From NCBI RefSeq assembly GCF_900106035.1, contig NZ_FNUC01000003.1, positions 1,302,001 through 1,366,000 of the forward strand: a DNA stretch of 64,000 nucleotides. Reading direction: 5' to 3'. Positions 37,592 through 58,128 of this stretch are shown here, piece after piece (position 1 is the first letter of the stretch; the number at the start of each line of letters is the position of its first letter). The position numbers and the translations under genes are program-made. Under the pieces are notes generated by a model that saw nothing but the letters and a program-made list of their open reading frames with translations, had not been told where the DNA came from and did not search any database. Source of the stretch: Jiangella alba. GTDB taxonomy: Bacteria; Actinomycetota; Actinomycetes; Jiangellales; Jiangellaceae.

Positions 37592-37628
37592 GGGCTGCTC
37601 ATCCGCTCTCTCGTCCTGATTCGTACGG

Positions 37629-39787: not shown

Positions 39788-41377
39788 ATGGCGCGCGGCC
39801 GCGGCCCGGTGGAGATCTCCCCGCCCTGCACTGGCGCCACGGTGAGTGAGGTGCCCGATGTGGCGCACTCCAGGTCGCTGGAGCCGCCGAGCACAGATCA
39901 ACTGGTTGCCTACTCTGTGCGCCAGGGAACCCGTGTTCCGCCGGAGGAACTGGAACGGGCGCGTGCGCAGGTGGCCGACTACCTTCGCGTCTTCGAACGC
40001 TTGGAACGGTTGGCGGACCCCCATGTGCCGGTTCGGCACCACCACCGTGATCCGGGGCGTCCGCCGCTGCCGGCCGAAGACCCATTCCACGCCGTCGTTC
40101 GGTTCTGTGAGGTCCGGGGATCCACGTCGGGACCTCTGGCCGGGATGCGCATCGGTGTCAAGGACAACATCGCGGTCGCGGGCGTGCCAATGACTGGTGG
40201 GCGCCCCCATGCGCGTGCGGTGGTCCCGACGGAGGATGCGGTGGTCGTGGAACGCCTTCTCGACACCGGCGCGGTGATCGTGGCGAAGACGAACATGAGC
40301 GGATCGGTCTTCGAAGAGACACGGAATCCGCTGGATCGCCGCTACTCTGCCGGCGTCTCATCTTCGGGCTCGGCTGCCGCCGTCGCGAGCGGGTTTGCCG
40401 ATGCGGCACTGGGAGTCGACCAAGCGGGCAGCGTGCGGTGGCCGGCCGCGTGGTGTGGTCTTGTCGGGATGAAGGCGACGCACGGCGTCGTGCCCTCATA
40501 CGGCCTGCTGAGCCAGGACCACACCATCGACCACATCGGGCCGATCACGAGATCGGTCGCCGAGAACGCGGCGCTGCTAGAGGTGCTCGCCGGGCACGAC
40601 TGGAGGGATCCCTATCCGATGGCCGTGCCTCCCGTGGAGGCGGGCTACACACGTGCGCTCGATGGGCGAATCAGGGGTCTTCGAATCGCCGTGGTCGGGG
40701 AGTCCCTCGAAGCGTCGGGATGCACGGACGACACGCTGCGCGAGTTCGAGAACGCTCAAAAGGTACTGATCGGACTCGGCGCGGAGGTCGTGCGTGTGTC
40801 GGTGCCGCTCTGGACGGACAGCTTCGCCATCTGGCTGGCCGGGGCGATCGTCGCACAGACCGCAATGATCGACTCCCTCGGCCAGGGATATGGACACTTC
40901 GGCAGGGTGGATGTCTCTCGCGTCGCCAAGATGGCTGCCGAGCAGCTCATCGGCGACCACGGAGCGACGACGATGTTCCTGACGCGTGAGCATGTGCGCA
41001 GCAGGTACCTCGGTGTGCCCTTCGGCCGAGCCCAGAATCTGCGTCTGGAGTTGCGACGCCAGGTCGATGCCGCCCTCCGCGATGCCGATCTGCTGATCAC
41101 ACCCACCTCGCCCATCGGGCCTGCGGAGGCTCCATCGTCTTCATTCGACCTGGTGGATCTTGCCACGAAGCCTCCAGGGATGCGCAGCGAGGCGTTCATG
41201 CGCGCGGCCCCAATCCTGACCTGCTGCCCGTTCAACCTCACGGGACACCCCGCGTTGACGGTGCCGTCGGGTGTGGGCGACGACGGAATGCCGAGAGGAC
41301 TCCAGATTATCGGCCCGCATTTCGGTGAGCACCTCATGTACCGAGCCGGGCATGCGTTGGAGACGGCGACAGCGTAG
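39788..41377 (+). CDS. Amidase signature family hydrolase
   Basis: This 529-aa amidase has the catalytic Lys in MRIGVKDNIAVAGVP, the Gly/Ser region SAGVSSSGSAAAVASG and the nucleophile region VDQAGSVRWPAAWCGLVGMK. In the last the usual GGS is AGS, but Ser and the following Arg are kept. The C-terminal LTVPSGVGDDGMPRGLQIIG is typical. It would hydrolyse an amide, or transfer an acyl group. The start is uncertain: ATG 39788 is used here, and a GTG at 39842 overlaps the stop of a short upstream frame. It converges with the first glycosyltransferase gene. Confidence 0.88.
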   Translation: MARGRGPVEISPPCTGATVSEVPDVAHSRSLEPPSTDQLVAYSVRQGTRVPPEELERARAQVADYLRVFERLERLADPHVPVRHHHRDPGRPPLPAEDPFHAVVRFCEVRGSTSGPLAGMRIGVKDNIAVAGVPMTGGRPHARAVVPTEDAVVVERLLDTGAVIVAKTNMSGSVFEETRNPLDRRYSAGVSSSGSAAAVASGFADAALGVDQAGSVRWPAAWCGLVGMKATHGVVPSYGLLSQDHTIDHIGPITRSVAENAALLEVLAGHDWRDPYPMAVPPVEAGYTRALDGRIRGLRIAVVGESLEASGCTDDTLREFENAQKVLIGLGAEVVRVSVPLWTDSFAIWLAGAIVAQTAMIDSLGQGYGHFGRVDVSRVAKMAAEQLIGDHGATTMFLTREHVRSRYLGVPFGRAQNLRLELRRQVDAALRDADLLITPTSPIGPAEAPSSSFDLVDLATKPPGMRSEAFMRAAPILTCCPFNLTGHPALTVPSGVGDDGMPRGLQIIGPHFGEHLMYRAGHALETATA

Positions 41378-41415
41378 CCAGAAGTTGTTTTGCAGGACAG
41401 CCGCCACTGGTTGCG

Positions 41416-42690
41416 TCAGGCCACCGCCGATTCGATGGTCCTCACCGCGGCGCCCAGTCCGTCTTCGTCGCGTATGCGGCGCCCCACCTCTGCAGCGCGC
41501 TGGGCCATGCCATCGTCGGTGAGCGCGACATTGATCGCCTTGGCCAGTCCGTCGGCAGTAAGGTCGCGTTCCGGCTGGGGAGGTGGAGCTACTCCGATGT
41601 CGTGCATGCACTGTGCGTTGAACGGCTGGTCGAACATGAAGGGGCAGAGCACCTGCGGGCGTCCCGCGGACAGTGCCGCGCCGATCGTGCCGCCACCGTG
41701 GTGCACGACGACGGACACACGTGGAAACAACCAGTCAAACGGCACCTGCTCGAGACAGAAGACGTCCTCTCCGAAGCCATCCGGATCCAGCCCTCCCCAG
41801 GCCGTGGCCACGACTGCGCGGGACTTCGTGTTGCGCAGGGCATCGGCCACAACCCGCGTGGTGCGGCGAGGATCGGCGCCTACCATGCTTCCGAAGCCGA
41901 CGAATATCGGTGGCTCGCCGTCATTGACGAACTCGGCAAGGCCGGCCGGGGGCGACCAACCCGGCGATGCTGGTAGGTACCAGAAGCCGGTCGTCTCGAC
42001 CCAGTCCGGGTAGGTCACCGGGGCTGGGAGCATGTGGCGGCTGAAGGCCTGGAGAAACGTGACCCTTTCTCCGTCGGGTCGGCGGAAGAGATCGTGCTGA
42101 CCGCGTCGCGCTGGCAGCCGCAACGCGTCGCGCCGCCAGCGGCTCAGATGCTTCTTCGAATAGAGTCGGAGCAGAAGATTCGTGGGTAGCGCCTTGTTGA
42201 GGCCGTACGAGGCGCGATTGAGCGAAGGCGGCAGCGCGAAGGGCAGGGTGGGGTCCGGGAACGAACTGGTCGGCACCCAGTAGGGGAACGGGCATACCGG
42301 AACCGCTGGTATGCCCAGCCATTCCGCCAGATGGTGACCGGGCACGTTGGTGTGGTGCACGAGTACGTCCGCGCCTCGCGCCGAGGCGTCAGCGAGCTCC
42401 CGCAGCTTCCCGCTGGGCTTCATCCGATTCTCACGGATGATCCGCAGTGCGAGATGCATGCGCATCAACCCGTTGCGGCCCACCGTATTGGGCGCACGTC
42501 GTTCGACGATCTCTGTCCGCGCACTGTCAGTCAGCGGGACGAAGGGAACGTCGTGTTCTGTCGCGAGGCTCATCGAAGACTCGGGCCCGACGAGTGTCAC
42601 ACGGTGGCCAGCGGTGCGCAGTGCGCTAGCCAATGCTACGAACGGTTGTACGTCGCCGCGGGTGCCGTCAGTCAGAACCAACGTGTCCAT
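41416..42690 (-). CDS. GT1-family glycosyltransferase (first copy)
   Basis: This 424-aa GT-B fold enzyme is of the sterol/macrolide glycosyltransferase type. The N-domain starts MDTLVLTDGTRGDVQPFVAL, and the donor domain has IFVGFGSMVGADPRR, VPFDWLFPRVSVVVHHGGGT and the nucleotide-sugar site SAGRPQVLCPFMFDQPFNAQ. It transfers an activated sugar to a small lipophilic acceptor. It is clearly paralogous to the enzyme at 43933. It is 7 bp downstream of the LLM oxidoreductase gene and probably translated from the same message. Confidence 0.93.
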   Translation of the reverse strand: MDTLVLTDGTRGDVQPFVALASALRTAGHRVTLVGPESSMSLATEHDVPFVPLTDSARTEIVERRAPNTVGRNGLMRMHLALRIIRENRMKPSGKLRELADASARGADVLVHHTNVPGHHLAEWLGIPAVPVCPFPYWVPTSSFPDPTLPFALPPSLNRASYGLNKALPTNLLLRLYSKKHLSRWRRDALRLPARRGQHDLFRRPDGERVTFLQAFSRHMLPAPVTYPDWVETTGFWYLPASPGWSPPAGLAEFVNDGEPPIFVGFGSMVGADPRRTTRVVADALRNTKSRAVVATAWGGLDPDGFGEDVFCLEQVPFDWLFPRVSVVVHHGGGTIGAALSAGRPQVLCPFMFDQPFNAQCMHDIGVAPPPQPERDLTADGLAKAINVALTDDGMAQRAAEVGRRIRDEDGLGAAVRTIESAVA

Positions 42691-42697
42691 CCGGTGA

Positions 42698-43657
42698 TTA
42701 GGTCCCTTCCAATTGTGGCTTGACGTCCGAGGCGATCAGTTCGATCTGCTCAAGGTCCCAGACGTCGGGAAGATCGAGATAGAGGCGGGTGATGCCGGTA
42801 GCCTCGCGGTACCGCCCGATCTGGTCGACCACGTGGTTCGGCGAGCCCGCGATGACCTGCCCGAGGTCCTCGGCCTCAGATCGCAGCCACGGAAGGAACT
42901 GGCGAATCACGCCCAGGCGACGCATCGAGTCGCCGTTGGTCCTGCCGACGGCTGGCGCGACCGCGGCGGATCGGACGATCCCACCCGGGTCTCGCCCGAT
43001 CGCTCGGGCGGCGGTCGCCACCCGAGCGAACTGCGCCGCCGCGTCCGCGGCACCTGCGAAGATCACGTTGAACTCGTTGGCGAAGCGGGCAGCGAGGCGC
43101 GGGGTCCTCTTCTTGCCTACGCCACCGATGATGATCGGTGGCGTAGGCGACTGGACCGGCGTACGCAAGGCCGGTGCGCCGGATAGCGTGTAGTGCTTTC
43201 CGTTGAAGTTGAATTGTGCGCCGGCAGGCGTCGTCCACAATCCGGTGATGATCTCGAGCTGTTCATTATAGAGGTCGAAGCGCTCTTCGATAGCAGGTAT
43301 GGGAACTCCGTAGAGACGATGCTCTTCTTCATCGTGTCCACTGCCAAGTCCGAAATCGAGTCGACCGTGCGACATCCGGTCGACTTGAGCAGCCGAAATG
43401 GCCAGCACCGAGGGATGTCGGAGTGTCGCGGCGGTGACGAGGGTGCCAATGCGAATGGTGGTGGTCTCCCGCGCCAGGCCAGCCAGTGTCGTCCACGCGT
43501 CTGTTGGTCCGGGCCATGCCGACGGATTTGTTCGGTTGAGGTAGTGGTCCGACCTGAAGAATCCGTCGAAGCCCGAAGCTTCGGCAGTGCGCGCTGCGGC
43601 CAGCTGGTCCTCGTAGGTTCCTCCGAACTGCGGCTCGGTCAAGATCCTCAGGTCCAT
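42698..43657 (-). CDS. LLM-class flavin/F420-dependent oxidoreductase
   Basis: This 319-aa TIM-barrel protein begins MDLRILTEPQFGGTYEDQLA with FDGFFRSDHYL, then IRIGTLVTAATLRHPSVLA and RLDFGLGSGHDEEEHRLYGV, which are typical of F420-dependent LLM enzymes of actinobacteria. It oxidises or reduces a small substrate. Its place between the two paralogous glycosyltransferases links it to the same product. Start ATG with a short leader; the 275-bp region upstream is shared with the second glycosyltransferase. Confidence 0.92.
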   Translation of the reverse strand: MDLRILTEPQFGGTYEDQLAAARTAEASGFDGFFRSDHYLNRTNPSAWPGPTDAWTTLAGLARETTTIRIGTLVTAATLRHPSVLAISAAQVDRMSHGRLDFGLGSGHDEEEHRLYGVPIPAIEERFDLYNEQLEIITGLWTTPAGAQFNFNGKHYTLSGAPALRTPVQSPTPPIIIGGVGKKRTPRLAARFANEFNVIFAGAADAAAQFARVATAARAIGRDPGGIVRSAAVAPAVGRTNGDSMRRLGVIRQFLPWLRSEAEDLGQVIAGSPNHVVDQIGRYREATGITRLYLDLPDVWDLEQIELIASDVKPQLEGT

Positions 43658-43932
43658 GTGATGATCTTAGAACTGCTCCTCGACCGCCGGTACGGGGCCG
43701 TTTTTGCCGATGCTGATGCAAACGGCGCGCGGTCAAGGCCTGGGCAAGCTGCTTACTGGCTGGGCGCGAAATTCGCCCCCTTTGAGTATTCACCCAGCGG
43801 AGGGAGGCTCATGGCGCCGGATCTACGTAAAGGGACGAGGACGGTGACTGAAATGGACCGAGGACGGTGGCTGATGCGCACGCATCGGTCGACGTGTGAA
43901 CTCAACGCACGTGTTCGACAGGATTCTGCCGG

Positions 43933-45243
43933 ATGAAGGCCCTACTCATCACCCACGGCAGCCGCGGAGATGTACAGCCGTTCGCTGCACTCGCGAGCGC
44001 GCTCGCGAGTGCCGGTCATACCTCCGTCCTCGCGGCGCCGGCGGCCTCCGCAGATCTGGGCGAGCCGTTCAGTGAGCGCGTGGTCAGGCTCCACGACGGG
44101 CCGAATGAGTTGGCGCGTGACCTGGAGGTCGTTAAAGGCCTTGAAACGGGCTTCCGCGGACTCAATGGGCGAAGACGCCTGGTGACGACTGTGCCGAAGA
44201 CCCGGCGATTGGTCAGAGCCGTGCTCGACGATCTGTCATCCATGGCCCGCGATATCGTGGAGAACCGTCGGGAGTCCTTCGACGTTGTCGTCCACCATGT
44301 CAGCGGCGGTGGGCACGATGTCGCAGAGTTCCTCGGTGTGCCCTCCGTGCTGATGTGTCCGCAGCCGTACTGGGTGCCGACCGGAGCATTTCCCGACCCG
44401 TCGTTCCGATGGCGTCCACCCAGGCGGTTCAACCGAGCAACCTACATCACCAGCCGCGCGATCTGGTGGCTGTTCAGCGGGAGCAGCACCCAGTGGCGTC
44501 GAGAACGGCTCGGTCTGCGTCGTCGTCCTAGCGGGAGGTTCCGACAGGTTGACGGGTCGCCAACCACAGTGTTGCACCCATTCACCAGACGGCTCTTGCC
44601 GCGGACGACAAGTTACCCGCCATGGGTGCACACGACAGGCTTCTGGTCGCAGCCTGCCGCCGGGACCTGGGTGCCGCCGGCATCGCTGGCGGCGTTTCTG
44701 GCCACCGGTCCTCCACCGGTCTACGTGGGATTCGCCAGTACGGTGACTTCGGACCCCCACCGGTTGGCGCGCCTTGTCCGTGAGGCGGTGCGGCTGGCCA
44801 GGGTGAGGGCCGTCGTCGTCGGCGGGTGGAGCGGCATGGCTGCGCCGGACCTCGGGGGCGACATCGCGTTCGTGGACAGCGTCCCCTTCGGTTGGTTGTT
44901 TCCGCAGATGGCCGCGATCGTCCATCATGGCGGCCTTGGCACCACTGGTGAGGCGATGGCGGCCGGGCGGCCTCAGGTCGTCTGTCCATCACTGCCGGAT
45001 CAGCGTTTCAACGCGCACCGGCTCTACGAGCTGGGCGTTGCCGCGCCTACGTCACGCCTGCGTGAGGTCACCGCGGAGCAACTCGCCTTGGCCATCCGGC
45101 GAGCGGCCCATGACAGGCGCTTGGCGGCTCGGGCGGAACAACTCGGACGTGAGATCCGCGGCGAGGACGGCGCGGCCGAAGCTGTTCGCATAGTCGAGGC
45201 GATCGCCACGGGTGATCGTCTGAAGTTGGTCCGCCAGAGCTAG
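43933..45243 (+). CDS. GT1-family glycosyltransferase (second copy)
   Basis: This 436-aa paralog of the enzyme at 41416 has matching blocks: MKALLITHGSRGDVQPFAAL, PYWVPTGAFPDPSFRW, VPFGWLFPQMAAIVHHGGLG and AAGRPQVVCPSLPDQRFNAH. The copies differ enough to use different acceptors or act on different positions. It is first in a rightward operon with rmlA (15-bp gap) and the MFS exporter. Its donor is therefore probably a dTDP-sugar, though the rest of a dTDP-sugar pathway is absent here. Confidence 0.93.
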   Translation: MKALLITHGSRGDVQPFAALASALASAGHTSVLAAPAASADLGEPFSERVVRLHDGPNELARDLEVVKGLETGFRGLNGRRRLVTTVPKTRRLVRAVLDDLSSMARDIVENRRESFDVVVHHVSGGGHDVAEFLGVPSVLMCPQPYWVPTGAFPDPSFRWRPPRRFNRATYITSRAIWWLFSGSSTQWRRERLGLRRRPSGRFRQVDGSPTTVLHPFTRRLLPRTTSYPPWVHTTGFWSQPAAGTWVPPASLAAFLATGPPPVYVGFASTVTSDPHRLARLVREAVRLARVRAVVVGGWSGMAAPDLGGDIAFVDSVPFGWLFPQMAAIVHHGGLGTTGEAMAAGRPQVVCPSLPDQRFNAHRLYELGVAAPTSRLREVTAEQLALAIRRAAHDRRLAARAEQLGREIRGEDGAAEAVRIVEAIATGDRLKLVRQS

Positions 45244-45258
45244 ATTGCGAGGCGTGAG

Positions 45259-46170
45259 GTGAAAGGAATCATCCTGGCCGGCGGACATGGCAGCCGGCTC
45301 CACCCGGTGACGTTGGGTGTGTCGAAGCAGCTCGTCCCGGTTTACAACAAACCCATGATCTATTACCCGCTGTCCGTGCTGATGCTCGCCGGAATTACCG
45401 ACATTCTCATCATCACAAACCCGCAGGACAGGCCGCAGTTTGAGCATCTCCTTACCGACGGCTCGCAATGGGGAATACGACTCGACTATGCAGCACAAGA
45501 TGAGCCGAGAGGGCTGGCAGATGCTTTCATCGTGGGTGCGGATCACGTCGATGGAGATTCGGTGGCGCTGATCTTGGGCGACAACATTTTCCACGGTCCC
45601 GGATTCTCCACCCTACTCTCGAGCGCCGTCAGCGAAATGAAGGGATGCGTGCTCTTCGGGTACCCAGTCGTGGATCCTGAGCGGTACGGCGTTGGCTACA
45701 CCGATGAAACCGGCAATCTGATCGCGCTCGAGGAGAAGCCGCGCCATCCCACATCCAACCGCGCCATCACCGGGTTGTACTTCTATGACAGTGATGTCGT
45801 GGAGATCGCGAGTGGGCTCGAGCCGTCCGCGCGCGGAGAACTCGAGATCACCGATCTGAATCGCGTCTACCTGGACCGTGGGCTGGCCTGCTTGGTCGAG
45901 CTCGGTCGCGGATTCGCCTGGCTGGACACGGGCACACATGACTCGCTGCTCGAGGCCAGTGAGTACGTGCGCACCTTGGAGTACAGGCAAGGGCTGCGCA
46001 TCGCCTGTCTCGAGGAGGTCGCGCTGCGGATGGGCTATATCGACGCCGAGCAGTGTCTGCGTCTCGGCCGGCAGCTCACCTCGTCCGGGTACGGCCGATA
46101 CGTGATCGATGCGGCGCTCGCTGCCGGTGCTCGTGAGGAGATGGGGGTTGGGCCCGGACGGGGGACTTGA
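45259..46170 (+). CDS. rmlA: Glucose-1-phosphate thymidylyltransferase
   Basis: This 303-aa nucleotidyltransferase makes dTDP-glucose from glucose-1-phosphate and dTTP. The motifs are the N-terminal IILAGGHGSRLHPVTLGVSK, LVPVYNKPMIYYPLSVLMLA, the metal site ALILGDNIFHG, GYPVVDPERYGV and ALEEKPRHPTSNRAITGLYF. It is about 10 residues longer than typical RmlA. GTG start. Its TGA overlaps the ATG of the MFS gene. No rmlB, rmlC or rmlD lies in the window. Confidence 0.95.
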   Translation: MKGIILAGGHGSRLHPVTLGVSKQLVPVYNKPMIYYPLSVLMLAGITDILIITNPQDRPQFEHLLTDGSQWGIRLDYAAQDEPRGLADAFIVGADHVDGDSVALILGDNIFHGPGFSTLLSSAVSEMKGCVLFGYPVVDPERYGVGYTDETGNLIALEEKPRHPTSNRAITGLYFYDSDVVEIASGLEPSARGELEITDLNRVYLDRGLACLVELGRGFAWLDTGTHDSLLEASEYVRTLEYRQGLRIACLEEVALRMGYIDAEQCLRLGRQLTSSGYGRYVIDAALAAGAREEMGVGPGRGT

Positions 46171-47651
46171 TGGCTCCAGGCCCTCGGCAGGCGACGGCGA
46201 CGCATGGACACGTCGTTCGCGCGCTCTCCGGCCTGCTGCTCGCCGTATTCGTCGTCTCGCTGTCGGGCACCGTTGTCGCCACCGCGCTGCCACGCATCAT
46301 CGCCGAGCTCGGCGGCAGCCAGCGGCAGTACGCCTGGGTGGTCACGGCGACACTGCTCACGATCACAGCCTCCGGACCCATCTGGGGCAAGCTGGCAGAT
46401 CGTGCGAGCAGGAGAACGCTGGTCCAGCTGGCGTTCTCGATCTTCGCTCTCGGGTCGGTCCTCGCCGGCTTCTCGCCGAACACCGAGATGCTCATCCTGT
46501 TCCGGGCGTTCGAGGGCGCGGGCATGGGTGGGTTGGGAGCTCTGGCCCCGACCGTCATCGCATCGTTGGTTGGTCCGCGGGAACGTAGCCGGTACGTGGG
46601 CTACTTCGTCGCCGTCGGGGCCATTGCGACCCTTGGCGGGCCGCTGATCGGCGGCCTCATCGTCGATGTGCCGCTTCTGGGGTGGCGGTGGTGCTTCTGG
46701 ATCGTCGCACCGATCGCAGTGGCGGCCGTCTTGCTGCTTCGGCGGATGCCGGAGCTCCCGGTGGTTCGGCCAGGCTGTCGCTTTGACTGGCTGGGCGCGT
46801 TCCTCGTACCGATTGCGATCTGCATCCTGATGATCTGGGTCACGTCGGCAGGTGCCGACTTCGGCTGGCGATCGCGCATCAGCCTCGGCCTGCTCGTCGT
46901 GAGTGCGACGCTGATCGTCTGTTCTGTCTTCGTCGAGCACAGAGCGGCCGATCCACTGCTCCCGCTGTGGCTGTTGCGGAATCGCACGATGCCGATCGCT
47001 CTCTTCGCAATCACCGTCGCTGGCGCTTCCCTGGTGGTCTCGTCGGTGTTCCTTGCCCAGTACTTTCAGATCGCTCGTCGGTACTCGCCGACCGAGTCAG
47101 GACTGTTGCTGCTCCCCTTACTCGCCGCGGTCGTCGGCGCGACACTCGTGTGCGGTCGGATCACGAGCCGCACCGGCCGCGTCAAGGCGCCCCTGGTGGT
47201 CGGCGGAGCACTGAGCGTGATGGGCTTCGCACTTCTGGGTGGGGTCGACGACTCGACGTCGCTGGGGTCGTTGTGTCTGAGCATGATGATTCTCGGGCTC
47301 GGGATCGGGTCCTGCGCGCCAAACCTGGTCGTGGTGGCGCAAAATCTCCTCGACTACCCCGACCTCGGCGCCGGCACGTCCCTGCTCACGTTCTTTCAAT
47401 CGTTCGGTGGAGCGGCCGGCATCTCCGTTCTGGGCGCGGTCTTCGCGTCGCAAGTATCGGATCGGGCGTCCGACCACACCGGGATCGAATACGCCTACGG
47501 TGCTGCATCCGGCCGTGTCTTCCTCATCTGCGCAGCCCTCGCTGGTGCCGCGTTCATCGCCGTCCTGTTCGTGCGGGAATCGCACGTCGCTGCCGAACAG
47601 TCAGGCGGGGACGGTGCCGCCCATGATCTCGGCGCGCAGCGGCCAGTGTGA
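46170..47651 (+). CDS. MFS drug exporter, DHA2/EmrB type, with repeat-derived C-terminus
   Basis: This 493-aa transporter has about 14 membrane segments. It starts MAPGPRQATATHGHVV, with the first segment near LSGLLLAVFVVSLSGTVVAT and the motif-C-like region near residue 150. It probably exports the glycosylated product of this island. The last ~16 codons (GGDGAAHDLGAQRPV) lie in the direct repeat at 47601-47652 and are antisense to the end of the radical SAM gene. The original C-terminus was therefore replaced by target sequence on integration. ATG 46170 is used; TTG 46167 is an alternative. Confidence 0.92.
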   Translation: MAPGPRQATATHGHVVRALSGLLLAVFVVSLSGTVVATALPRIIAELGGSQRQYAWVVTATLLTITASGPIWGKLADRASRRTLVQLAFSIFALGSVLAGFSPNTEMLILFRAFEGAGMGGLGALAPTVIASLVGPRERSRYVGYFVAVGAIATLGGPLIGGLIVDVPLLGWRWCFWIVAPIAVAAVLLLRRMPELPVVRPGCRFDWLGAFLVPIAICILMIWVTSAGADFGWRSRISLGLLVVSATLIVCSVFVEHRAADPLLPLWLLRNRTMPIALFAITVAGASLVVSSVFLAQYFQIARRYSPTESGLLLLPLLAAVVGATLVCGRITSRTGRVKAPLVVGGALSVMGFALLGGVDDSTSLGSLCLSMMILGLGIGSCAPNLVVVAQNLLDYPDLGAGTSLLTFFQSFGGAAGISVLGAVFASQVSDRASDHTGIEYAYGAASGRVFLICAALAGAAFIAVLFVRESHVAAEQSGGDGAAHDLGAQRPV

Positions 47652-47652
47652 C
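47601..47652. repeat. Right copy of the island-flanking direct repeat
   Basis: This copy is part of two genes: the end of the MFS gene on the plus strand and the last 17 codons with stop of the radical SAM gene on the minus strand. It differs from 21562-21613 at one base (47607 G versus 21568 C). Confidence 0.92.
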
Positions 47653-49289
47653 CAGAAGGCGCCCTTGTAGCCCAGTTCCGTCAACCGCAGCAGGAACGGG
47701 TTGTCGGCGTAGTTGTTGTCCTCCGGTGTCAGGCCGGGCGCTGTCGGCAGCATGACCCGCGGGCGGTCGTGCAGCGGGACCCACTCCCACAGCAGCTCCA
47801 GGCTGGTCAGCCAGCGGTCGCCGGAGCGGGTGTTGCGTGCGCCCTCGGGCAGCGCGGGGGAGAAGTAGTAGACCGGCCGGAACCCGCCCATCGGGTCGAA
47901 CATGAACTGCCGCTCGTACTCCACCCTGCTGTGGCACTGCTCCAGGGTCGACAGCAGGATCGGCGCCGTCGCGGTGTTGGACTGCAGGCCTGGGACGGCG
48001 CGCGTGCCGCCGCTGCGGGCGGCGAGGTCGCGGCCCAGCGGCGAGTACGGGAACGCGCGGAGGCCGAGCGTGAAGCCGACCACCGTCGCATCCAGCGCGA
48101 GCAGGCCGTCGACGCAGTCGTGCATGGTCTCGGCGGTCTCGCCGGGCATGCCCAGCAGCGCCTCGACCATCGTCAGCATCCCGTACTGCGTCGCCAGGTC
48201 GCACAGCCGCTGCACGTCGGCGTAGCCGTAGAACCGGGTGCCGCGGCCGGTCACCTTCCAGCCGTTCAGGACGTCGTCGCGGACGTGGTCGGGTGCCACG
48301 TTGATGCCCGCGCAGCCGGCCTCGGCCAGCAGCGCCGCGTACTCCTCGTCGAACGGCGCCGGCTGCACGTAGATCCACAGCCGGAGGTCGTGCAGCGGCG
48401 AGGACCGGTCGGTGCGCTTGCGCCGGACGATCTCGCGCAGCACCGCCTTGCTGTGCGCGATGTTGAGGTTGAACTCGCTGTCGGTCGTGTGCAGGTCGTG
48501 CACGCCCTGCGCCGTCAGCAACTCCATCTCGTCGACGACGGCGGCCTCGGCGCGGCGGGCGAACCGGTTGCCCTTCGCGTCCGGTTCGACGCAGTGCGCG
48601 CAGGCGTACGTGCAGCCGTTCTTCGTCAGGATGTTGCCCAGCCCGCCGCGCTCGTAATAGGCGAGGTTGTCGACCTTGTCCGGCCGGCCGGAGCGCCGCA
48701 GGTACGGCGTCGACCGATTCACCAGGTCGACCCGGCCGTCCGCCGTCAGCTGCGTGCGGTGCGGGATCTGCCGGACGTCGCCGCGGCCGAGGTTGATGAT
48801 CAGCCCGGGCACCTTCGCCGGCGAGTCGTCGTTGGCCAGCATCGTCGCCAGCTCGACCAGCGTCATCTCGCCCGGCCCCTTGACGCCGTAGTCGATGCCG
48901 AACCAGTCGACCAGCGCGAACGGCATCGACGAGAACCCCACCCCGCCGCCCACGATCGGCGCCGTCGTCCAGCGCTGCACCTCGCGCACGATGTCGCGGT
49001 GGGAGTCGAGGAAGACGCGCTGCTCCTGCGGGTAGATCGTGTCCGTGTTCCGGAACGTCATGCCGACCAGCACCGGCCGGTGCTCACCGAAGTAGGTCGC
49101 GACGGTGTGCCGCCACCGGTCGCGCACGAGCGTCAGGTCGACCACGTCCACCTCGAAGCCGGCGGCCTCGAGCGACGTGGTGAGGATGTCCAGCGCATAC
49201 GGCGTGATGGGCGGGTGCACCAGGTTCGGGTTCACCAGCGTGACGAGCGGGCGGTTCACGTACGCCTCCCCGGGGATGGAGTCGATCAC
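47601..49289 (-). CDS. B12-binding-domain radical SAM enzyme
   Basis: This 562-aa protein has an N-terminal cobalamin-binding-type Rossmann domain (~14-160; VTLVNPNLVHPPITPYALDI, APIVGGGVGFSSMPFALVDW). The radical SAM core carries CTYACAHC at ~227-234 for the 4Fe-4S cluster, and VEALLGMPGETAETMHDCVD supports the AdoMet site. Such enzymes methylate or rearrange unactivated carbons. Codon use is that of the core chromosome, and the 3' end is the integration site of the island. It is near a tryptophanase-like gene, so an aromatic amino-acid product is possible. Confidence 0.9.
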   Translation of the reverse strand: MIDSIPGEAYVNRPLVTLVNPNLVHPPITPYALDILTTSLEAAGFEVDVVDLTLVRDRWRHTVATYFGEHRPVLVGMTFRNTDTIYPQEQRVFLDSHRDIVREVQRWTTAPIVGGGVGFSSMPFALVDWFGIDYGVKGPGEMTLVELATMLANDDSPAKVPGLIINLGRGDVRQIPHRTQLTADGRVDLVNRSTPYLRRSGRPDKVDNLAYYERGGLGNILTKNGCTYACAHCVEPDAKGNRFARRAEAAVVDEMELLTAQGVHDLHTTDSEFNLNIAHSKAVLREIVRRKRTDRSSPLHDLRLWIYVQPAPFDEEYAALLAEAGCAGINVAPDHVRDDVLNGWKVTGRGTRFYGYADVQRLCDLATQYGMLTMVEALLGMPGETAETMHDCVDGLLALDATVVGFTLGLRAFPYSPLGRDLAARSGGTRAVPGLQSNTATAPILLSTLEQCHSRVEYERQFMFDPMGGFRPVYYFSPALPEGARNTRSGDRWLTSLELLWEWVPLHDRPRVMLPTAPGLTPEDNNYADNPFLLRLTELGYKGAFWSHWPLRAEIMGGTVPA

Positions 49290-49363
49290 TCAGAGTGACA
49301 CCGGAACCAGCCCTTGGGGAGGGGGCCGATTTCGAACCATCCCTGACAAGCCGATCTGACCTG

Positions 49364-49386
49364 CACGTTTTCGCAAACTGGACAGG
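49364..49386 (+). promoter_or_regulatory. Candidate operator TTTCGCAAACTGGACAG upstream of small XRE gene
   Basis: The core TTTCGCAAA-TGGACAG at 49364-49386 recurs inverted at 54185-54205 before the second XRE-type regulator gene with a related DNA-binding domain. An overlapping inverted repeat GGACAG/CTGTCC follows (49380-49385, 49400-49405). Confidence 0.5.
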
Positions 49387-49439
49387 ATTCTTCGTGTTCT
49401 GTCCTGGTGTGACCGCTCAGAATTCATCACGCTCGGTGT

Positions 49440-49748
49440 GTGAAGATGATCGTCCGCGCCGCAGGCGTGACGTCCCCCGACGACACCGTCGGCACCGTGA
49501 TCCGCCAGGCTCGGCGCCGGCTCGGCTACAGCCAGTACGCCGTCGCCGACGAACTCGTGCGCATCTCCGGCAACGGCGCCCTCACCCGCGACGAGGTCGC
49601 TCGCTGGGAGCGGGGCAAACGCATCCCCGGCCCGTACTGGCGGCAGTGGATCAGCCAGGTTCTGGACGTGGGCTCGTCGGACCTGGAGCGAGCCGCCCGG
49701 GCCGCGCGGGTCGCCCGGCGGGCTCGCCGGGCGCGAGCACGGCCGTGA
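49440..49748 (+). CDS. Small XRE-type DNA-binding protein
   Basis: This 102-aa regulator has a helix-turn-helix at ~17-70 (VIRQARRRLGYSQYAVADEL, EVARWERGKRIPGPYWRQWI) and a C-terminal tail of Arg/Ala repeats. The DNA-binding part is closely related to the N-terminus of the protein at 52614-54074. It starts at GTG 49440, or at ATG 49446. The last 98 bp overlap the convergent tryptophanase-like gene. It is divergent from the radical SAM gene, which it may control. Confidence 0.8.
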   Translation: MKMIVRAAGVTSPDDTVGTVIRQARRRLGYSQYAVADELVRISGNGALTRDEVARWERGKRIPGPYWRQWISQVLDVGSSDLERAARAARVARRARRARARP

Positions 49749-51084
49749 AGTGCCGCAGCGGCCCGGTCTGCTCGACGATCCGGTAGCCCGGGATCTCCGC
49801 CGCCTTCGCCACGACGGTGGCCGCGCTCTCGGCGACGTACTCGAGGTGGCTCCTGGTGTAGACCCGCCGGGGCAGCGCGAACCGGACCAGTTCGCGTGGC
49901 GCCGGAAGATCGTCGCCGCCATCCGACGCCGGCCGGCCGAACACCAGCGTCCCCAGCTCCGAGACCCGCACCGCGCCGGCCAGGTACAGCTCGTTGGCCA
50001 GCGCCGTCGCGGGTAGCCGGTGCGGCGGCACGTGCGGCAGCAGGGCCGCGGCGTCGACGTACACGGCGTGGCAGCCGGTGGGCTGCAGCACGGGCAGGCC
50101 GGCCTCGGCCAGCTGCTCGCCGAACCAGCGGGCCGTCTGAGCGCGATACCGCAGGTAGTCCGGGTCGGTCACCTCGAGCAGGCCCTGGGCCAGCGCCTCC
50201 AGGTCGCGTCCGGCCAGCCCGCCGTACGTCGGGAACCCCTCGACGGCGATCAACTGGTCGCGGCATCGGCGGGCCAGCTCGGCGTCGCGCAGTGCGATCA
50301 GTCCGCCGATGTTCGCCACCCCGTCCTTCTTGAGGCTCGCCCAGCAGCCGTCGGCGAGGGCGAACACCTCGCGGGCGACGTCTCGGGGCGCCCGGCCGGC
50401 GTGCGCCGGGTCGCGCTCGGTGATGAGGTAGGCGTTCTCGGCGAACCGCGACGCGTCCAGCAGCAGCGTCACGCCGTGATGGTCGCACAGCTCGCGGACC
50501 GCGGCGACGTTGTCCAGCGACACCGGCTGCCCGCCGCCGGCGTTGTTCGTCACCGTCAGCACGACACACCGCACCCGCGAGCCGCCGGGTCCGGACAGCA
50601 GGTCGCGCAGGGCGGGGACGGACAGGTCGCCGCCGAACGGCGCCGGGCCGGTCTGCTCGGCCGGGAGGTCGACGGCCTCCGCGCCGGCCGCCTCCACGCT
50701 GGCCCGCGTCGTGTCGAAATGCGTGTTCGCCACCGAGACGTCGCCGGGCCGCAGCAACCGGCCGAGCAGGATCCGCTCCGCCGCCCGTCCCTGATGCGCC
50801 GGGATCACCTCCGGGTAGCCGGTCAGCTCGCGCACCACCGTCTCGAACCGCTCGTACGACCGCGCGCCGGCATACGACTCGTCGCCGACCATGAGGGCCG
50901 CCCACTGTGCGGCTGACATCGCGCTCGTCCCCGAGTCGGTGAGCAGGTCGATGGTGATGGCGCGAGCCGGCACCCGGAACAGGTTGAATCCGGCCTCCTT
51001 CAGGGCGCGACGACGCTCGGGCACGCTGGGGAAGGGGATCGGCTCGACGGCCTTGATGCGGAACGGCTCCATGAACGCGGGCAC
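49651..51084 (-). CDS. Tryptophanase/tyrosine phenol-lyase family enzyme
   Basis: This 477-aa PLP enzyme has the family blocks MEPFRIKAVEPIPFPS, TIDLLTDSGTSAMSAAQW, GDESYAGARSYERF, IPAHQGRAAERILLG, TVTNNAGGGQPVSLDN and the PLP-lysine region SLKKDGVANIGGL at ~250. It cleaves or forms the C-beta bond of an aromatic amino acid, giving or using indole or phenol with pyruvate and ammonia. GTG 51084 is preferred because AAGGGA sits 7 bp before it. The C-terminal ~25 residues (Gly/Pro/Arg-rich) are unusual and overlap the XRE gene. Confidence 0.92.
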   Translation of the reverse strand: MPAFMEPFRIKAVEPIPFPSVPERRRALKEAGFNLFRVPARAITIDLLTDSGTSAMSAAQWAALMVGDESYAGARSYERFETVVRELTGYPEVIPAHQGRAAERILLGRLLRPGDVSVANTHFDTTRASVEAAGAEAVDLPAEQTGPAPFGGDLSVPALRDLLSGPGGSRVRCVVLTVTNNAGGGQPVSLDNVAAVRELCDHHGVTLLLDASRFAENAYLITERDPAHAGRAPRDVAREVFALADGCWASLKKDGVANIGGLIALRDAELARRCRDQLIAVEGFPTYGGLAGRDLEALAQGLLEVTDPDYLRYRAQTARWFGEQLAEAGLPVLQPTGCHAVYVDAAALLPHVPPHRLPATALANELYLAGAVRVSELGTLVFGRPASDGGDDLPAPRELVRFALPRRVYTRSHLEYVAESAATVVAKAAEIPGYRIVEQTGPLRHFTAVLAPGEPAGRPARPGRLAPGPTSPRPEPG

Positions 51085-51127
51085 GGATAGTCCCTTCGCA
51101 CGCTGCGACTCGACGTCATCAAGTCTG

Positions 51128-51146
51128 TGCGACGTGAAGCGTCGCA
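51128..51146. promoter_or_regulatory. Inverted repeat TGCGACG-TGAAG-CGTCGCA upstream of the tryptophanase-like gene
   Basis: This 7-bp perfect inverted repeat with a 5-bp loop lies 44 bp before the tryptophanase-type start. It could be an operator or a leader hairpin. Confidence 0.35.
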
Positions 51147-51152
51147 GGTAGG

Positions 51153-51192
51153 GGCCAATTCGAGGACACCGACGATCTTGTGACAATTGGCC
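51153..51192. promoter_or_regulatory. Spaced inverted repeat GGCCAATT...AATTGGCC
   Basis: The arms 51153-51160 and 51185-51192 are separated by 24 bp in the region between the tryptophanase-like gene and the divergent AraC gene. AT-rich half sites in a high-GC context suit a regulator site. The TGTGACA direct repeat at 51180 and 51199 lies alongside. Confidence 0.45.
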
Positions 51193-51349
51193 TGCATCTG
51201 TGACACTCTGCGGTCGTGACTGCCGGCTCCGACCAGCGCTATCGTGACGGAGTCTTGCCCGGCCAGGGCTGCTGACGCGCCGCACGGCATTCTCGCGGCC
51301 GAGGCTGGGTGCCCGCTCCGAGGTCGGGAGAATCCGCAGGGGACCCGCC

Positions 51350-52330
51350 ATGATCGCACCACCGTTGCAACGGTTCGAGCTGTTCTATACCGAGGATCTC
51401 GACGACGCCCGTGACCTCGTGGGTCAGGTCTTCGTGCCTCACCGGCTGGATCTGGCTGGCGGGTGCACGAAAGTGCGCGCACGCATGCACACGAAGCGCC
51501 TCGACCGCCTCGCGGCGAATTATGTGACCTACGGTGGCGGCGTCCTCATCGAACCCGGCGAATTGGGGTCGTTCTTCGTCGTCCAGATGCCGCTGGCCGG
51601 CCAGAGCCTGGTCCGGTACGGCGGCGAAGAACTGCTGTCCACGCCCGATACCGCTTCTGTGGTCTCGCCCACGATCCCGCTCACCCAGCGCTGGTCGACG
51701 GATTGTGCGCAACTCATCCTGCGGCTGGAACGGCCGGCGCTCGAAGCGCACCTGCGCCACCTCACCGGCGCGCCGCTGCCGACACCACTTCGGTTCGACC
51801 TCGGTATGGACATCAGCACGGGATCCGGCCGCACGTGGGCGGGGCACTTCCGTCTGCTGGTCGCCGAGCTCGATCGCACCGACGGCAGCATGGTCACGAA
51901 TCCTCTGGTGTTCACTGAGCTCGAGGACCTGCTCATGACCTCACTACTCGTTGCGCAGCCGCACAACTACTCGCACCTGCTGGCCGAGTCGCAGCTCAGT
52001 CCGATTCCGAACCGTGCCGTCACCATGGTCCGCGAGATGATCGAGAACCACCCCGAGTGGGAGCACACTGTCGCGAGCCTGGCCAAGATGGCCCAGGTGA
52101 GTGTACGGGCGCTCCAACTCGCTTTCCGGCAACACGTCGGCGTCACACCGCGCGAATACCTGTGGTCGGTGCGAATGCGGCGGGCGCGTGAGGAACTGCT
52201 CGCCTCCCAACGCGAGACGACGACGGTTGCCCGGGTCGTCGCCAGGTGGGGCCTGGGCCATCCCGGCCGGTTCGCCGCGTTGTACGTCAAGCAGTATGGT
52301 GAGCTGCCATCGGAAACACTGGCGCGGTGA
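51350..52330 (+). CDS. AraC-family regulator, AraC-binding-like N-domain
   Basis: This 326-aa protein starts MIAPPLQRFELFYTEDLDDA. It has an N-terminal ligand or dimer domain with HTKRLDRLAANYVTYGGGVL and a C-terminal AraC DNA-binding domain at ~220-322 (VASLAKMAQVSVRALQLAFR, REYLWSVRMRRAREELLAS, RWGLGHPGRFAALYVKQYGE). It is divergent from the tryptophanase-like gene and is the likely controller of that gene, through the spaced inverted repeat between them. The RBS is CAGGGGAC. Confidence 0.92.
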   Translation: MIAPPLQRFELFYTEDLDDARDLVGQVFVPHRLDLAGGCTKVRARMHTKRLDRLAANYVTYGGGVLIEPGELGSFFVVQMPLAGQSLVRYGGEELLSTPDTASVVSPTIPLTQRWSTDCAQLILRLERPALEAHLRHLTGAPLPTPLRFDLGMDISTGSGRTWAGHFRLLVAELDRTDGSMVTNPLVFTELEDLLMTSLLVAQPHNYSHLLAESQLSPIPNRAVTMVREMIENHPEWEHTVASLAKMAQVSVRALQLAFRQHVGVTPREYLWSVRMRRAREELLASQRETTTVARVVARWGLGHPGRFAALYVKQYGELPSETLAR

Positions 52331-52613: not shown

Positions 52614-54074
52614 TCAGCCGAACAGATCCAACTGCGGCGCCAGCGTGCGCGCCTCGTCCACCAGCGACCGGACGGCGGGCAGCGCGGCCTCGACATCGGC
52701 GTCGTCGACCCGGTTGTCCCGGCCGACCGGACGGCCCAGGCTCAGCTGCCGCTGGCGCAGGAGCTCCAGGTGACCGAACCGGTCGCCGAACTGGGCGATG
52801 ACCGACCGCGCGACGACGTCGCCGTCGCGGCCCGGCGCGGGCCGCAGCCCCTGCGCCGCCAGCAGTCCGCAACCCACCAGGTGTGCCGCTTGGCAGACCA
52901 GTACGAACGCCGAGCCCGCCGATGCCGCCATGACGTCCTCCGCTGCCGTCAGGTGGTGTGTGGCGAGGTCGAGATACGGTCGTGCGTCGGCGGCCGGCCC
53001 GCTGAACAACTCCAGCCGGTTGCCGGCCAGCAGTTCCGCGACCACCTCGACGCCGGCCGGCCAGCCGCCGGTCGCGACGGGCGCGCCGTCGGCCGATGCC
53101 GGCGGTGCGACGTGGACCACCGGCACGCGGCCGCGCTGGCGGGGGATGCGGATCCGTTCCGGCTGCCGGGGCCGGGACAGTGTCCGCAGGGGCAGGCGCG
53201 CGTCGTGGCCGGCCGGTACCCGGCGGGCGGCGTAGTCAGGACGTCCGATCAGTGCGAACGCGACTCGCCGGTGCAATCGCCGTTCGGCCCTGCGTGCCGC
53301 CGCTGCCAGTTCCGGCCGCCCGGGCGTGTGGTCGTCGTCGGGGGTCAGTCGCACCAGGATGACGTCGGGCTCCGGCCCGACGACGCCGGCGAACCGTTCG
53401 GCCCAGGTGCCGGTCAACGCGATGCGGGCGACGCCGGTGACCCTGCCGAACTCCTCGCCGACGATCTGCGGCACGCCGTAGGTGCCACGGATCAACTCGG
53501 TGAGCGGCCCGATCGTCGAGCGGTCGGTGGCTGCCCGCATGAGCCGGATGGCGCCCTCGTTCCGCCTGGTCAGGATGCCGGCGTCCTCGAGCAGCTTGGC
53601 TTCTTTCGACACCGACGCGAGTGAGCCGCCGGCGTGTTCGGCCAGCTCCGTCAGGCTGAAGGCGCGGTCCGGGTTCAGCAGAGTGGCCGCGAGAATGCCG
53701 GCCTGGACCCGCGATCGGAACATCGGCAGCAGCGCTGGCGTGCCCTGTGGCCGGCGGGCCGTGCCGTTCTGCGGTGCCGGCGTGACCGCCGCCGCGTGTC
53801 CCAGCCGGCTCTGACGCCGGGCCGTCGCCGCCCCGGCGTCGAGGTGTTCGGACGGGACCTCGAGAACCACCGCGAGCCATTGCCGCCACTCGCGTCGCGG
53901 CACCTGCCTGCCGCGTTCCCACCGGGCGACGCGGTCGCGGCCCATCGTGGGCTTGCCGGAGACCGCCGCGAGGCGGTCCGCAAGGGTGTACTGGCTCATG
54001 CGCAGGCGTTGCCGGGCTGAGCGGATCATCTGTCCGATGGGCTGTTCCGAGTCGCCGTGCGATTCCGCGTTCAT
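52614..54074 (-). CDS. XRE HTH plus winged-helix plus nucleotidyltransferase-like regulator
   Basis: This 486-aa multi-domain protein has as residues ~10-75 an XRE helix-turn-helix (MIRSARQRLRMSQYTLADRL, RVARWERGRQVPRREWRQWL) like that at 49440. Residues ~120-190 form a winged helix (SLTELAEHAGGSLASVSKEA, KLLEDAGILTR). A nucleotidyltransferase-like fold follows (LTGTWAERFAGVVGPEPDVI), in which the usual G-S-W-A and D-x-D residues are only partly kept, so activity is doubtful. The last ~130 residues are helical, like a HEPN tail. The start ATG has AAAGAGG upstream. The TTTCGCAAA motif lies 111 bp before the start. Confidence 0.8.
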   Translation of the reverse strand: MNAESHGDSEQPIGQMIRSARQRLRMSQYTLADRLAAVSGKPTMGRDRVARWERGRQVPRREWRQWLAVVLEVPSEHLDAGAATARRQSRLGHAAAVTPAPQNGTARRPQGTPALLPMFRSRVQAGILAATLLNPDRAFSLTELAEHAGGSLASVSKEAKLLEDAGILTRRNEGAIRLMRAATDRSTIGPLTELIRGTYGVPQIVGEEFGRVTGVARIALTGTWAERFAGVVGPEPDVILVRLTPDDDHTPGRPELAAAARRAERRLHRRVAFALIGRPDYAARRVPAGHDARLPLRTLSRPRQPERIRIPRQRGRVPVVHVAPPASADGAPVATGGWPAGVEVVAELLAGNRLELFSGPAADARPYLDLATHHLTAAEDVMAASAGSAFVLVCQAAHLVGCGLLAAQGLRPAPGRDGDVVARSVIAQFGDRFGHLELLRQRQLSLGRPVGRDNRVDDADVEAALPAVRSLVDEARTLAPQLDLFG

Positions 54075-54184
54075 CTCTGCACACACCTCTTTCGGAGGCA
54101 CTGCTCCGGGGGTATTGCGCTGGCCTCCTGGTCGGAGATTACGGCGATCTTCGTCGCCTCGCCGGTGCACTTCGCGACGAACAC

Positions 54185-54205
54185 TGTCCACTTTGCGAAA
54201 GTGTA
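54185..54205 (-). promoter_or_regulatory. Candidate operator with CACTTTGCGAAAGTG palindrome
   Basis: On the minus strand this reads ACACTTTCGCAAAGTGGACAG, given here in part as CTTTCGCAAAGTGGACAG. It contains a perfect 6-bp-arm palindrome and matches the motif at 49364-49386 over most of 27 bp. It lies upstream of the XRE-winged-helix gene. Confidence 0.55.
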
Positions 54206-54347
54206 GGTTCACCCCCTGATGTCGACGTTTCACCTGGTCAGCGCGATGTTGCGGGGTGGAAATTCGTCCCCTGCCCGGATCGGCCGAAGGGTCGTCACGC
54301 TGACCTCAGTGATGCGACTGGGAGTGTGCGACACGAGCCGACGGGGA

Positions 54348-54476
54348 ATGTCTCTCGATGATGTACTGGTGGGCGGCGACGCGTCGATTCGCGAATGCCT
54401 GACGATCATCGACACCCACGGTGTGGGGACTGTTTTCGTCGTTGATTGCGCCGGGCGGTTGCCCGCGGCCATGGAC
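54348..54476 (+). pseudogene. Truncated CBS-domain fragment
   Basis: MSLDDVLVGGDASIRECLTI and IIDTHGVGTVFVVDCAGRL match the first half of a CBS domain as found fused to sugar nucleotidyltransferases. After about 43 codons the similarity stops and the frame runs into antisense of the SMP-30 gene. GC and codon use are lower than in the neighbours, suggesting a relic of transferred DNA. No promoter is seen. It lies in the 449-bp gap between the XRE fusion and the lactonase. Confidence 0.4.
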
Positions 54477-57477: not shown

Positions 57478-58128
57478 ATGGCCGAGATGCCTGCGAATCC
57501 GATGTCCATCGAACTGAACGTCACCCACCGCATGCTCTGGTGGCAGACGCTCGAGGAGGACGATCTTCCCGAGCACTGGCACGTGTCCGCGGACGTGTGG
57601 AAGCTCGACGTGTGCCGCGACGAGCACCGCCACGTCGGCGACTTCGCGCTGGCCGTCGCCGATCTCAACGGCGACCGCAACCTCCTCGACAGCATCGAGC
57701 TGGGGGAGTGGGCGCTGGAGTTCATCGCCGAGACCGTCATCGACCTCGCGGAAGGAACCCTGGTCCCGGACCTGGACGACCAGATCAGCGAGGGCCTGCC
57801 GCGCATGGTCATCCTGAAGCGGTTCGAACTGGCCGAGGCGTGGCGCGGTCACGGCCTGGCCGCACCACTGATCGCGGCGGCGCTGGGGCGGTTCGCCACC
57901 ACCGCGCGGCTCGCCGTCTGCCGGCTCTCGCCCGCCGACTTCCGTGCCACCGCCGCCGACCGCGTGTCCGCCGAGCTGGCCTGCCTGCGGATGGGGGCGC
58001 TGCTGGAGAGCATCGGCTTCTACCTGTGGCGCGGGGTGTACGTGGTCGACCTGCGCGATCCGGCGCTCGCCGACGCCAGCTTCGACTCGCTCGAGCGATG
58101 GGGCCCGTACAACGACCCGAGTCTGTGA
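57478..58128 (+). CDS. GNAT-like hypothetical protein
   Basis: This 216-aa protein starts MAEMPANPMSIELNVT with AGGTAACCGGAC before the ATG (GAGG at 9 bp). The first half is acidic with Trp-rich segments (LWWQTLEEDDLPEHW). The second half has FELAEAWRGHGLAAPLIAAA, resembling the acetyl-CoA loop of GNAT acetyltransferases, followed by strands and LLESIGFYLWRGVYVVDL. A substrate cannot be named. It converges with the first small XRE gene (14-bp gap). Confidence 0.7.
   Translation: MAEMPANPMSIELNVTHRMLWWQTLEEDDLPEHWHVSADVWKLDVCRDEHRHVGDFALAVADLNGDRNLLDSIELGEWALEFIAETVIDLAEGTLVPDLDDQISEGLPRMVILKRFELAEAWRGHGLAAPLIAAALGRFATTARLAVCRLSPADFRATAADRVSAELACLRMGALLESIGFYLWRGVYVVDLRDPALADASFDSLERWGPYNDPSL

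Follow-up and report, generated by a model that had tools for sequence, protein, structure and literature searches.

A 64,000-nucleotide stretch of the Jiangella alba genome (contig NZ_FNUC01000003.1, positions 1,302,001 to 1,366,000; referred to as the window) encodes a cobalamin-dependent radical S-adenosylmethionine (SAM) methylase close to a pyridoxal phosphate (PLP)-dependent lyase. We propose, with a probability of about 0.75, that the two enzymes form a co-regulated module that would convert tryptophan via 2-methyltryptophan into 2-methylindole, pyruvate and ammonia; both reactions and their order are predicted from sequence. In the first step, the methylase, a member of the TsrM family, would move the methyl group of SAM via cobalamin to C2 of L-tryptophan. 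In the second, the lyase would bind 2-methyltryptophan on PLP, with the equivalent of Tyr72 protonating the indole at C3 and the equivalent of Asp133 holding the ring NH, followed by the release of 2-methylindole, pyruvate and ammonia. AraC and XRE regulators would coordinate expression of the two genes through the promoter boxes that they are presumed to bind.

The first-pass annotation of this stretch had recognized a B12-type radical SAM gene, a tryptophanase-like gene and an AraC gene. The open reading frames are as described there, and Pfam agrees on the domains (B12-binding and Radical_SAM in the methylase, Beta_elim_lyase in the lyase). Both enzymes are kept as proteins in many relatives, and are thus not chance reading frames. 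A route that methylates or rearranges an aromatic amino acid or indole had also been suggested; of this, methylation followed by cleavage is supported and can be specified as acting at C2 of tryptophan, while rearrangement finds no support.

The methylase belongs to the TsrM family

The methylase matches TIGR04428, the model for tryptophan 2-C-methyltransferases, with 927.5 bits (cut-off 500). Its best match in the Protein Data Bank is KsTsrM (6wte; 59% identity over the aligned part), and it contains the CxxxCxxC motif together with the B12-binding and radical-SAM domains that mark members of the family. In KsTsrM numbering, Arg69, Cys227, Cys231, Cys234, Glu236, Glu273 and Tyr308 are identical in all 56 aligned sequences, including that of the window; Tyr308 we take to be a family-defining residue. 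The roles of the cobalt-facing Arg69, the cluster cysteines, Glu236 and Glu273 are assigned in PMC9692996. The same article describes the formation of 2-methyltryptophan by TsrM as a non-radical methyl transfer, so that the label 'radical' is to be understood structurally. By these features the methylase is a TsrM-family tryptophan 2-C-methyltransferase that would use cobalamin, a [4Fe-4S] cluster and SAM, and the closeness of this relationship, along with the intact catalytic residues, suggests that the Jiangella enzyme methylates tryptophan at C2. TsrM has been produced together with the cobalamin-uptake btu operon and a low-potential ferredoxin (PMC8896826). A phylum sample of 396 genomes gave little information, as TIGR04428 matched 190 at the default E-value and exceeded its cut-off in one, the source genome itself. 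This genome comprises 7.68 Mb, and its nearest named relatives are Jiangella species with methylases that are 96–97% identical.

The lyase carries tryptophanase residues

The lyase scores 568 bits against the tryptophanase subfamily model NF009709 (cut-off 285). The top fold matches of its structure model (predicted local distance difference test score, pLDDT, 88.4) are tryptophan indole-lyase (TIL) and tyrosine phenol-lyase (TPL). Across the 26 lyases linked to a TsrM gene, Thr50, Ser52, Tyr72, Arg101, Phe132, Asp133, Asn194, Asp223, Arg226, Ser263, Lys266, Arg414 and Phe459 (Proteus vulgaris numbering) are kept throughout; position 458 is a histidine in 19, the window included, and a glutamine in 7. 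PMC11301627 assigns the contact with the ring NH to Asp133, supported by His458, and the protonation of C3 to Tyr72. In P. vulgaris, His458 is important for tryptophan cleavage. With TnaA/TIL of E. coli and P. vulgaris the lyase has in common the fold, the PLP lysine and the Asp133/His458/Tyr72 set. It differs from them in overall sequence (38% and 43% identity, respectively), in clade-specific residues and in falling under both TnaA equivalog cut-offs (TIGR02617, 388.5 versus 825.8 bits; NF053783, 435.9 versus 750 bits).

Between tryptophanase and tyrosine phenol-lyase, which the first-pass annotation had left side by side, model scores and residues favour the former. Tyrosine phenol-lyase was rejected with 427.7 bits against TIGR02618 (cut-off 720.7) and the absence of its residues: position 133 is Asp and not Thr, position 391 is Leu and not Arg, and position 458 is His and not Phe. 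Position 391 we take to correspond to Arg381 of TPL. At the level of sequence, the lyase is therefore one that carries tryptophanase residues. We propose that it would cleave 2-methyltryptophan to 2-methylindole, as suggested by the conserved tryptophanase residues, the pairing with TsrM and a sister clade that has a tryptophan prenyltransferase as partner. PMC11015028 portrays E. coli TnaA as highly promiscuous, so that a ring-substituted substrate is plausible.

Methylase and lyase genes are paired across genomes

A scan of genome contigs yielded 57 TsrM-related loci, for which flanks of 10 kb were fetched. A lyase gene is present in the flanks of 18, in several gene orders, and two additional pairs in genomes with a second TsrM bring the number of linked loci to 20. 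The rest of the 57 loci consist of 17 that share genes for flavoenzymes, regulators and transporters, 7 with thiopeptide-type neighbours and 15 others or fragments. The grouping followed sequence clusters, and for some of these a single representative was checked by Pfam.

The neighbourhood search and the lyase phylogeny that had been proposed at the outset both speak for the pair, and the counter-case of two genes that do not adjoin each other in relatives does not hold. Among 22 Jiangellaceae genomes, 15 contain a lyase over the cut-off, and the same 15 contain a full-length TsrM. In one further genome of the family (J. rhizosphaerae, L053), only the last 184 TsrM residues are left and no lyase exceeds the cut-off. 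The TsrM remnant of L053 adjoins an incomplete SMP-30-like gene, in a stretch where no lyase, AraC or XRE gene turned up; a single deletion apparently took out the module. In 393 genomes of the class, with at most three candidates scored per genome, a tryptophanase-family gene was found in 40 and a TsrM match in 16, all of them Jiangellaceae; the 25 lyase-bearing genomes outside this family gave no TsrM match. A sample of 80 genomes from the genus group of A. jejuensis, which does not include those of L011, L013, L018 and L022 and for which at most 20 candidates per genome were scored, contains four lyase copies at 74–78% identity, and all four lie within ~3 kb of a TsrM gene. The 36 other lyase-family genes of these 80 genomes are at most 53% identical, and none is near TsrM. 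Three further genomes of the group contain a TsrM at 59–61% identity and only a distant lyase. Two TsrM-lyase pairs on different contigs were seen in one genome of this genus group (G846). A tryptophanase-family gene is present in 28 of 49 TsrM genomes searched, several of them unlinked.

In the Jiangellaceae rows, lyase and methylase genes are each divergent from a regulator gene. Seven Pseudonocardiaceae rows read lyase-AraC-XRE-methylase in one direction, two Sciscionella rows have the order lyase-AraC-methylase, and in A. jejuensis the methylase gene comes first and the lyase gene second. In S. tauricus the lyase gene is followed by the methylase gene with 33 bp between the aligned ends, and an amino-acid permease gene lies directly upstream of the lyase gene. 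The AraC gene is present in 22 of 23 linked rows, and the gene for HTH102, the XRE regulator of the window, in 19 of 23. Gene order has thus been rearranged with the company retained, which argues for a functional link.

The linked lyases form a separate clade

A tree of 69 lyases places all 26 TsrM-linked sequences in one clade (support 100/97), with the S. tauricus enzyme inside it on a long branch. Their sister group comprises 16 unlinked lyases that are 50–58% identical. In 10 of 11 sister-clade loci read, a gene resembling DMATS-type prenyltransferases stands next to or near the lyase gene, and conservon-like genes are present as well (histidine kinase in 10, roadblock in 11, ATP-binding in 11, DUF742 in 6). 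Pfam was run on one representative of each gene; that of the DMATS-like genes exceeds the cut-off of Trp_DMAT (59.8 bits) and stays under that of the NCBIfam DMATS model (114 versus 164 bits). The neighbours are those of the Type A clusters described in PMC3617294, so that the sister-clade lyases probably cleave ring-substituted tryptophan. At one sister-clade locus (L193), the lyase gene lies beside conservon-type roadblock and ATP-binding genes, and no DMATS-like gene was called.

Several residues, among them Ala195 (in 25 of 26), Ser225 (26), Trp261 (24), Cys352 (26) and Val395 (25), are nearly fixed in the linked clade and different in almost all members of the other two lyase groups. In sequence, some of the clade-specific residues lie next to positions that bind PLP or belong to the pocket; this is compatible with a changed pocket but no proof of one. 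In the methylase tree, which was built by a quick method without bootstrap, 19 of the 20 linked TsrMs fall into one group of 24.

Promoter boxes and regulators

The box YTGGCCCCT is found upstream of the lyase gene in 17 of 26 rows (21 with variants) from Jiangellaceae and Pseudonocardiaceae, mostly 75–80 bases before the aligned lyase start. Among 31 methylase upstream regions, eight contain the exact YTGGCCCCT and eight others contain GGCCCCCTCCCC, which would be a form of the same site. YTGGCCCCT has a density of 0.065 per kb in these loci (both strands, sites included), and it lies within 200 bases upstream of 4 of 260 other genes in 20 loci, three of which are recurrent neighbours (IclR, two; GNAT-like, one). 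Genome-wide, AAYTGGCCCCTNCC has a single exact copy, at the lyase gene. With one mismatch it gives 6 matches in the whole genome versus 6 in the reversed control, and TGGCCCCTRCC with one mismatch gives 4 in the window versus 3.23 expected by chance; since these forms are at chance level, only the exact box is informative. For TGTCCASTTTGCGAA we found two exact genomic copies and one with a mismatch (reversed control, 0); the exact copies lie in the interval between HTH102 and methylase genes and upstream of the larger regulator gene. A pair of TGTCAC half-sites spaced by 20 bases is confined to Jiangella among 23 rows scanned (6 of 12 Jiangellaceae rows, namely the window, L002, L003, L004, L006 and L007; 0 of 11 other rows). 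Taken together, the related rare boxes before both enzyme genes point to co-regulation, presumably through binding of the regulators.

The observation that each enzyme gene has its own nearby regulator is borne out by the divergent AraC gene at the lyase and the divergent HTH102 gene at the methylase, the latter not noticed in the first-pass annotation. The best NCBIfam match of the AraC protein, AndR, remains far below its cut-off (150 versus 350). The larger regulator is a possible fifth member of the module. Its N-terminal XRE part resembles HTH102 (tblastn, Pfam) and is followed by a winged-helix-like part with matches below the Pfam cut-offs; its structure model is of low confidence (pLDDT 64).

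Alternative explanations

Several observations weigh against a dedicated module. In Jiangella, the genes of the two enzymes belong to different transcription units, and the seven loci whose lyases have Gln in place of His458 (L017, L018, L019, L022, L051, L187, L188) are exactly the seven in which all four genes are co-directional. The box is missing before the lyase gene in 5 of 26 rows (L010, L017, L019, L027, L051), and among the Pseudonocardiaceae rows the exact YTGGCCCCT was found before the methylase gene only in L011 and L013, both without lyase. Moreover, the promoter patterns were picked with the sequences in view and close relatives make up many of the rows, so that the weight is carried by conservation across two families. 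The main TsrM group does not include the S. tauricus methylase, although the lyase of that species is inside the linked clade. No lyase gene lies in the fetched flanks of the other five members of the TsrM group of 24 (L011, L013, L016, L021, L029). L011 and L013 represent second TsrM copies in genomes with a complete module elsewhere, L016 comes from a metagenome bin in which no lyase was found, and the search of L021 and L029 yielded neither AraC nor XRE genes. Finally, given the promiscuity of TnaA (PMC11015028), acceptance of 2-methyltryptophan would not alone show specialization.

The two genes might share a locus and serve separate pathways, with the lyase forming plain indole and TsrM making 2-methyltryptophan for another purpose. 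The window lyase indeed keeps all residues for tryptophan cleavage, the transcription units are separate in Jiangella, and TsrM occurs without a nearby lyase in other clusters. We nevertheless consider this unlikely, since close lyase copies were found only beside TsrM in Jiangellaceae and the A. jejuensis genus group, since the lyases are a separate clade with their own nearly fixed substitutions, and since the promoter boxes of both genes are related. The counter-case named in the first-pass annotation, a plain indole-forming lyase with the SAM enzyme expressed apart, is unlikely on the same grounds of clade, co-occurrence and boxes. A role of the lyase in removing 2-methyltryptophan, a tryptophan mimic, for self-protection or recycling appears quite improbable. 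In the Jiangellaceae rows the two enzyme genes are divergent from separate regulators, so that their levels could be adjusted independently, but the core module of the window has no other gene that would use 2-methyltryptophan, and both genes lie in one co-directional run in seven Pseudonocardiaceae loci.

A possible, if doubtful, alternative is that 2-methylindole (or 2-methyltryptophan) is an intermediate on which further enzymes act, their genes lying either close by or elsewhere. A parallel would be the presumed conversion of 6-dimethylallylindole to its 3-carbaldehyde; the published Type A cluster is credited with the aldehyde (PMC3617294). Apart from regulators, two proteins recur near the module: a CBS-nucleotidyltransferase of 409 residues, encoded at full or almost full length in 8 of 20 linked loci and as remnants in the window and L004, and a GNAT-like protein. 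IclR and GNAT-like genes carry the box in some loci. In many linked loci, however, the CBS-nucleotidyltransferase and GNAT-like genes are absent or disrupted, and neither protein is, to our knowledge, of a kind that acts on indoles. Addition of more than one methyl group by TsrM, leading to a dimethylindole, seems very improbable: TsrM is also able to methylate C4 of 2-methyltryptophan, but PMC9692996 presents this as a further capacity in labelling, analog and probe assays, and no sequence sign of it is seen here. With 2-methylindole as the favoured product, its release as a volatile or signal is speculation. We regard it as rather doubtful that 2-methylindole is a dedicated extracellular signal distinct from indole, with the flanking AraC and XRE proteins as receptors and switches of a self-contained actinobacterial signalling system.

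Relation to known systems

The Type A cluster of Streptomyces sp. SN-593, whose genes we take to be named IptA and IptB, resembles the module in that the tryptophan ring is modified before tryptophanase cleavage and in that DMATS-linked lyases form the sister clade (the SN-593 lyase is not in the tree). In contrast to that cluster, the modification here would be C2 methylation by a cobalamin enzyme and not prenylation, and the regulators are of the AraC and XRE types in place of a conservon. Type A clusters combine a tryptophan prenyltransferase with a tryptophanase, and PMC3617294 reports one as responsible for 6-dimethylallylindole-3-carbaldehyde, the tryptophanase step being itself inferred there. 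With thiostrepton TsrM and KsTsrM (6wte/6wtf), the Jiangella methylase shares family, domains and catalytic residues; unlike thiostrepton TsrM, it has no thiopeptide genes found beside it. Because its partner is a lyase, the methylated amino acid would be cleaved and not turned into quinaldic acid, as it is for thiostrepton TsrM.

Both enzyme families are known, as is the logic from prenylated indoles. No such two-gene cluster had come to mind in the first-pass annotation, and in the open-access literature searched we found no description of a TsrM-tryptophanase pair or, hence, of its product. The one relevant paper found to name both TsrM and tryptophanase, PMC11015028, employs TsrM and TnaA separately. 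The 2-methylindole residue was, as stated in 2018, until then known only in 2-methyltryptophan (PMC6017429), and 2-methylindole appears in a 2025 imaging paper in the list of compounds annotated from microbial colonies (PMC11987030).

If the proposed pathway is correct, TsrM chemistry reaches beyond thiopeptides, with 18 of 57 TsrM loci in a different pathway, and a family so far tied to thiostrepton has a second role in some soil actinobacteria. The module would yield a C2-methylated indole in two genetically encoded steps, and this product is easily sought by headspace analysis. The principle of modifying tryptophan before cleaving it, known with prenylation, would extend to methylation; the related lyases seem specialized, each for its own partner.

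Locus layout and neighbouring genes

Features of the module and its surroundings, in positions of the window.
Feature	Position	Strand	Remark
B12/radical SAM methylase open reading frame	47601-49289	-	likely 47601..49259 (GTG 49259)
Lyase open reading frame	49651-51351	-	likely 49651..51084 (GTG 51084)
HTH102, 102-residue XRE regulator	49440-49748	+	PF01381; divergent from methylase gene
AraC-family regulator	51350-52330	+	Pfam AraC_binding_2 and HTH_18; divergent from lyase gene
Larger regulator, possible fifth member	52614-54074	-	start 54074 deduced from homologues
AATTGGCCCCTACC, box in lyase promoter	51147..51160	-	exact once in 7.68 Mb genome
GGCCCCCTCCCC, methylase promoter	49316..49327	-	taken as variant of lyase box
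TGTCCAGTTTGCGAA, operator-like 15-mer	49370..49384	-	between HTH102 and methylase genes
TGTCCACTTTGCGAA, second genomic copy of operator-like 15-mer	54185..54199	+	upstream of larger regulator
Two direct TGTCAC half-sites, 20 bases apart, lyase promoter	51180..51205	-	possible AraC site

The methylase gene lies ~390 bases downstream of the lyase gene on the same strand, and the HTH102 gene between them overlaps the 3' end of the lyase gene by 98 bases. The more likely start codons of lyase and methylase are the two GTG codons listed, behind the probable ribosome sites AAGGGA and GGGGAGG, respectively; a stop codon directly 5' of the equivalent GTG in J. aurantiaca fits the latter start. Neither Rfam RNAs nor tRNAs were found in the window.

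Amidase, glycosyltransferase, LLM, rmlA and MFS genes were rejected as module members, all six queried genes being matched only in L004 among the 57 loci. The stretch 36353-47651 contains genes for a glycosyltransferase, RmlA, an F420-type LLM oxidoreductase, MFS efflux, an amidase, asparagine synthase and a pyruvyl transferase, and forms a region of its own, of a glycosylation or antibiotic-like kind; J. anatolica (L004) shares the six genes queried, which come from 39788-47651. The CBS-nucleotidyltransferase and GNAT-like protein, which recur in both families (the latter also in L187 and L188), could be part of the module. A remnant that matches residues 1-103 of the CBS-nucleotidyltransferase lies at 54165-54473, with a similar one in L004. 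The product of 57478-58128 is acetyltransferase-like by eye and has no Pfam match; counterparts accompany the module in Jiangella, Actinophytocola, Haloechinothrix and Amycolatopsis, and the gene in L017 has the promoter box.

A thiopeptide context was rejected, as representatives of YcaO, P450s and resistance methylase (four gene clusters) gave no match at E 1e-10 in the whole window and the 20 linked loci; the 7 other TsrM loci with thiopeptide-type genes contain P450s (7), YcaO (4) and resistance methylase (2). Prenyltransferase and histidine kinase queries from L189 gave no match at E 1e-8 in the whole window and the 20 linked loci, which speaks against a Type A cluster; genes of both kinds do lie near sister-clade lyases. 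L011 and L013 have the promoter box and both regulator genes (AraC, XRE) but no lyase gene; ketosynthase-III, short-chain dehydrogenase/reductase and thioesterase genes lie nearby (by Pfam for L011, by sequence cluster for L013). The 17 TsrM loci with the other gene set (L024, L026, L028, L030, L032-L037, L039-L041, L048, L049, L054, L055) contain flavoenzymes resembling acyl-CoA dehydrogenase and Lys/Orn monooxygenase, a LuxR-type response regulator and others. KsTsrM falls among these 17 loci in the tree, and its own pathway may therefore be a non-thiopeptide one.

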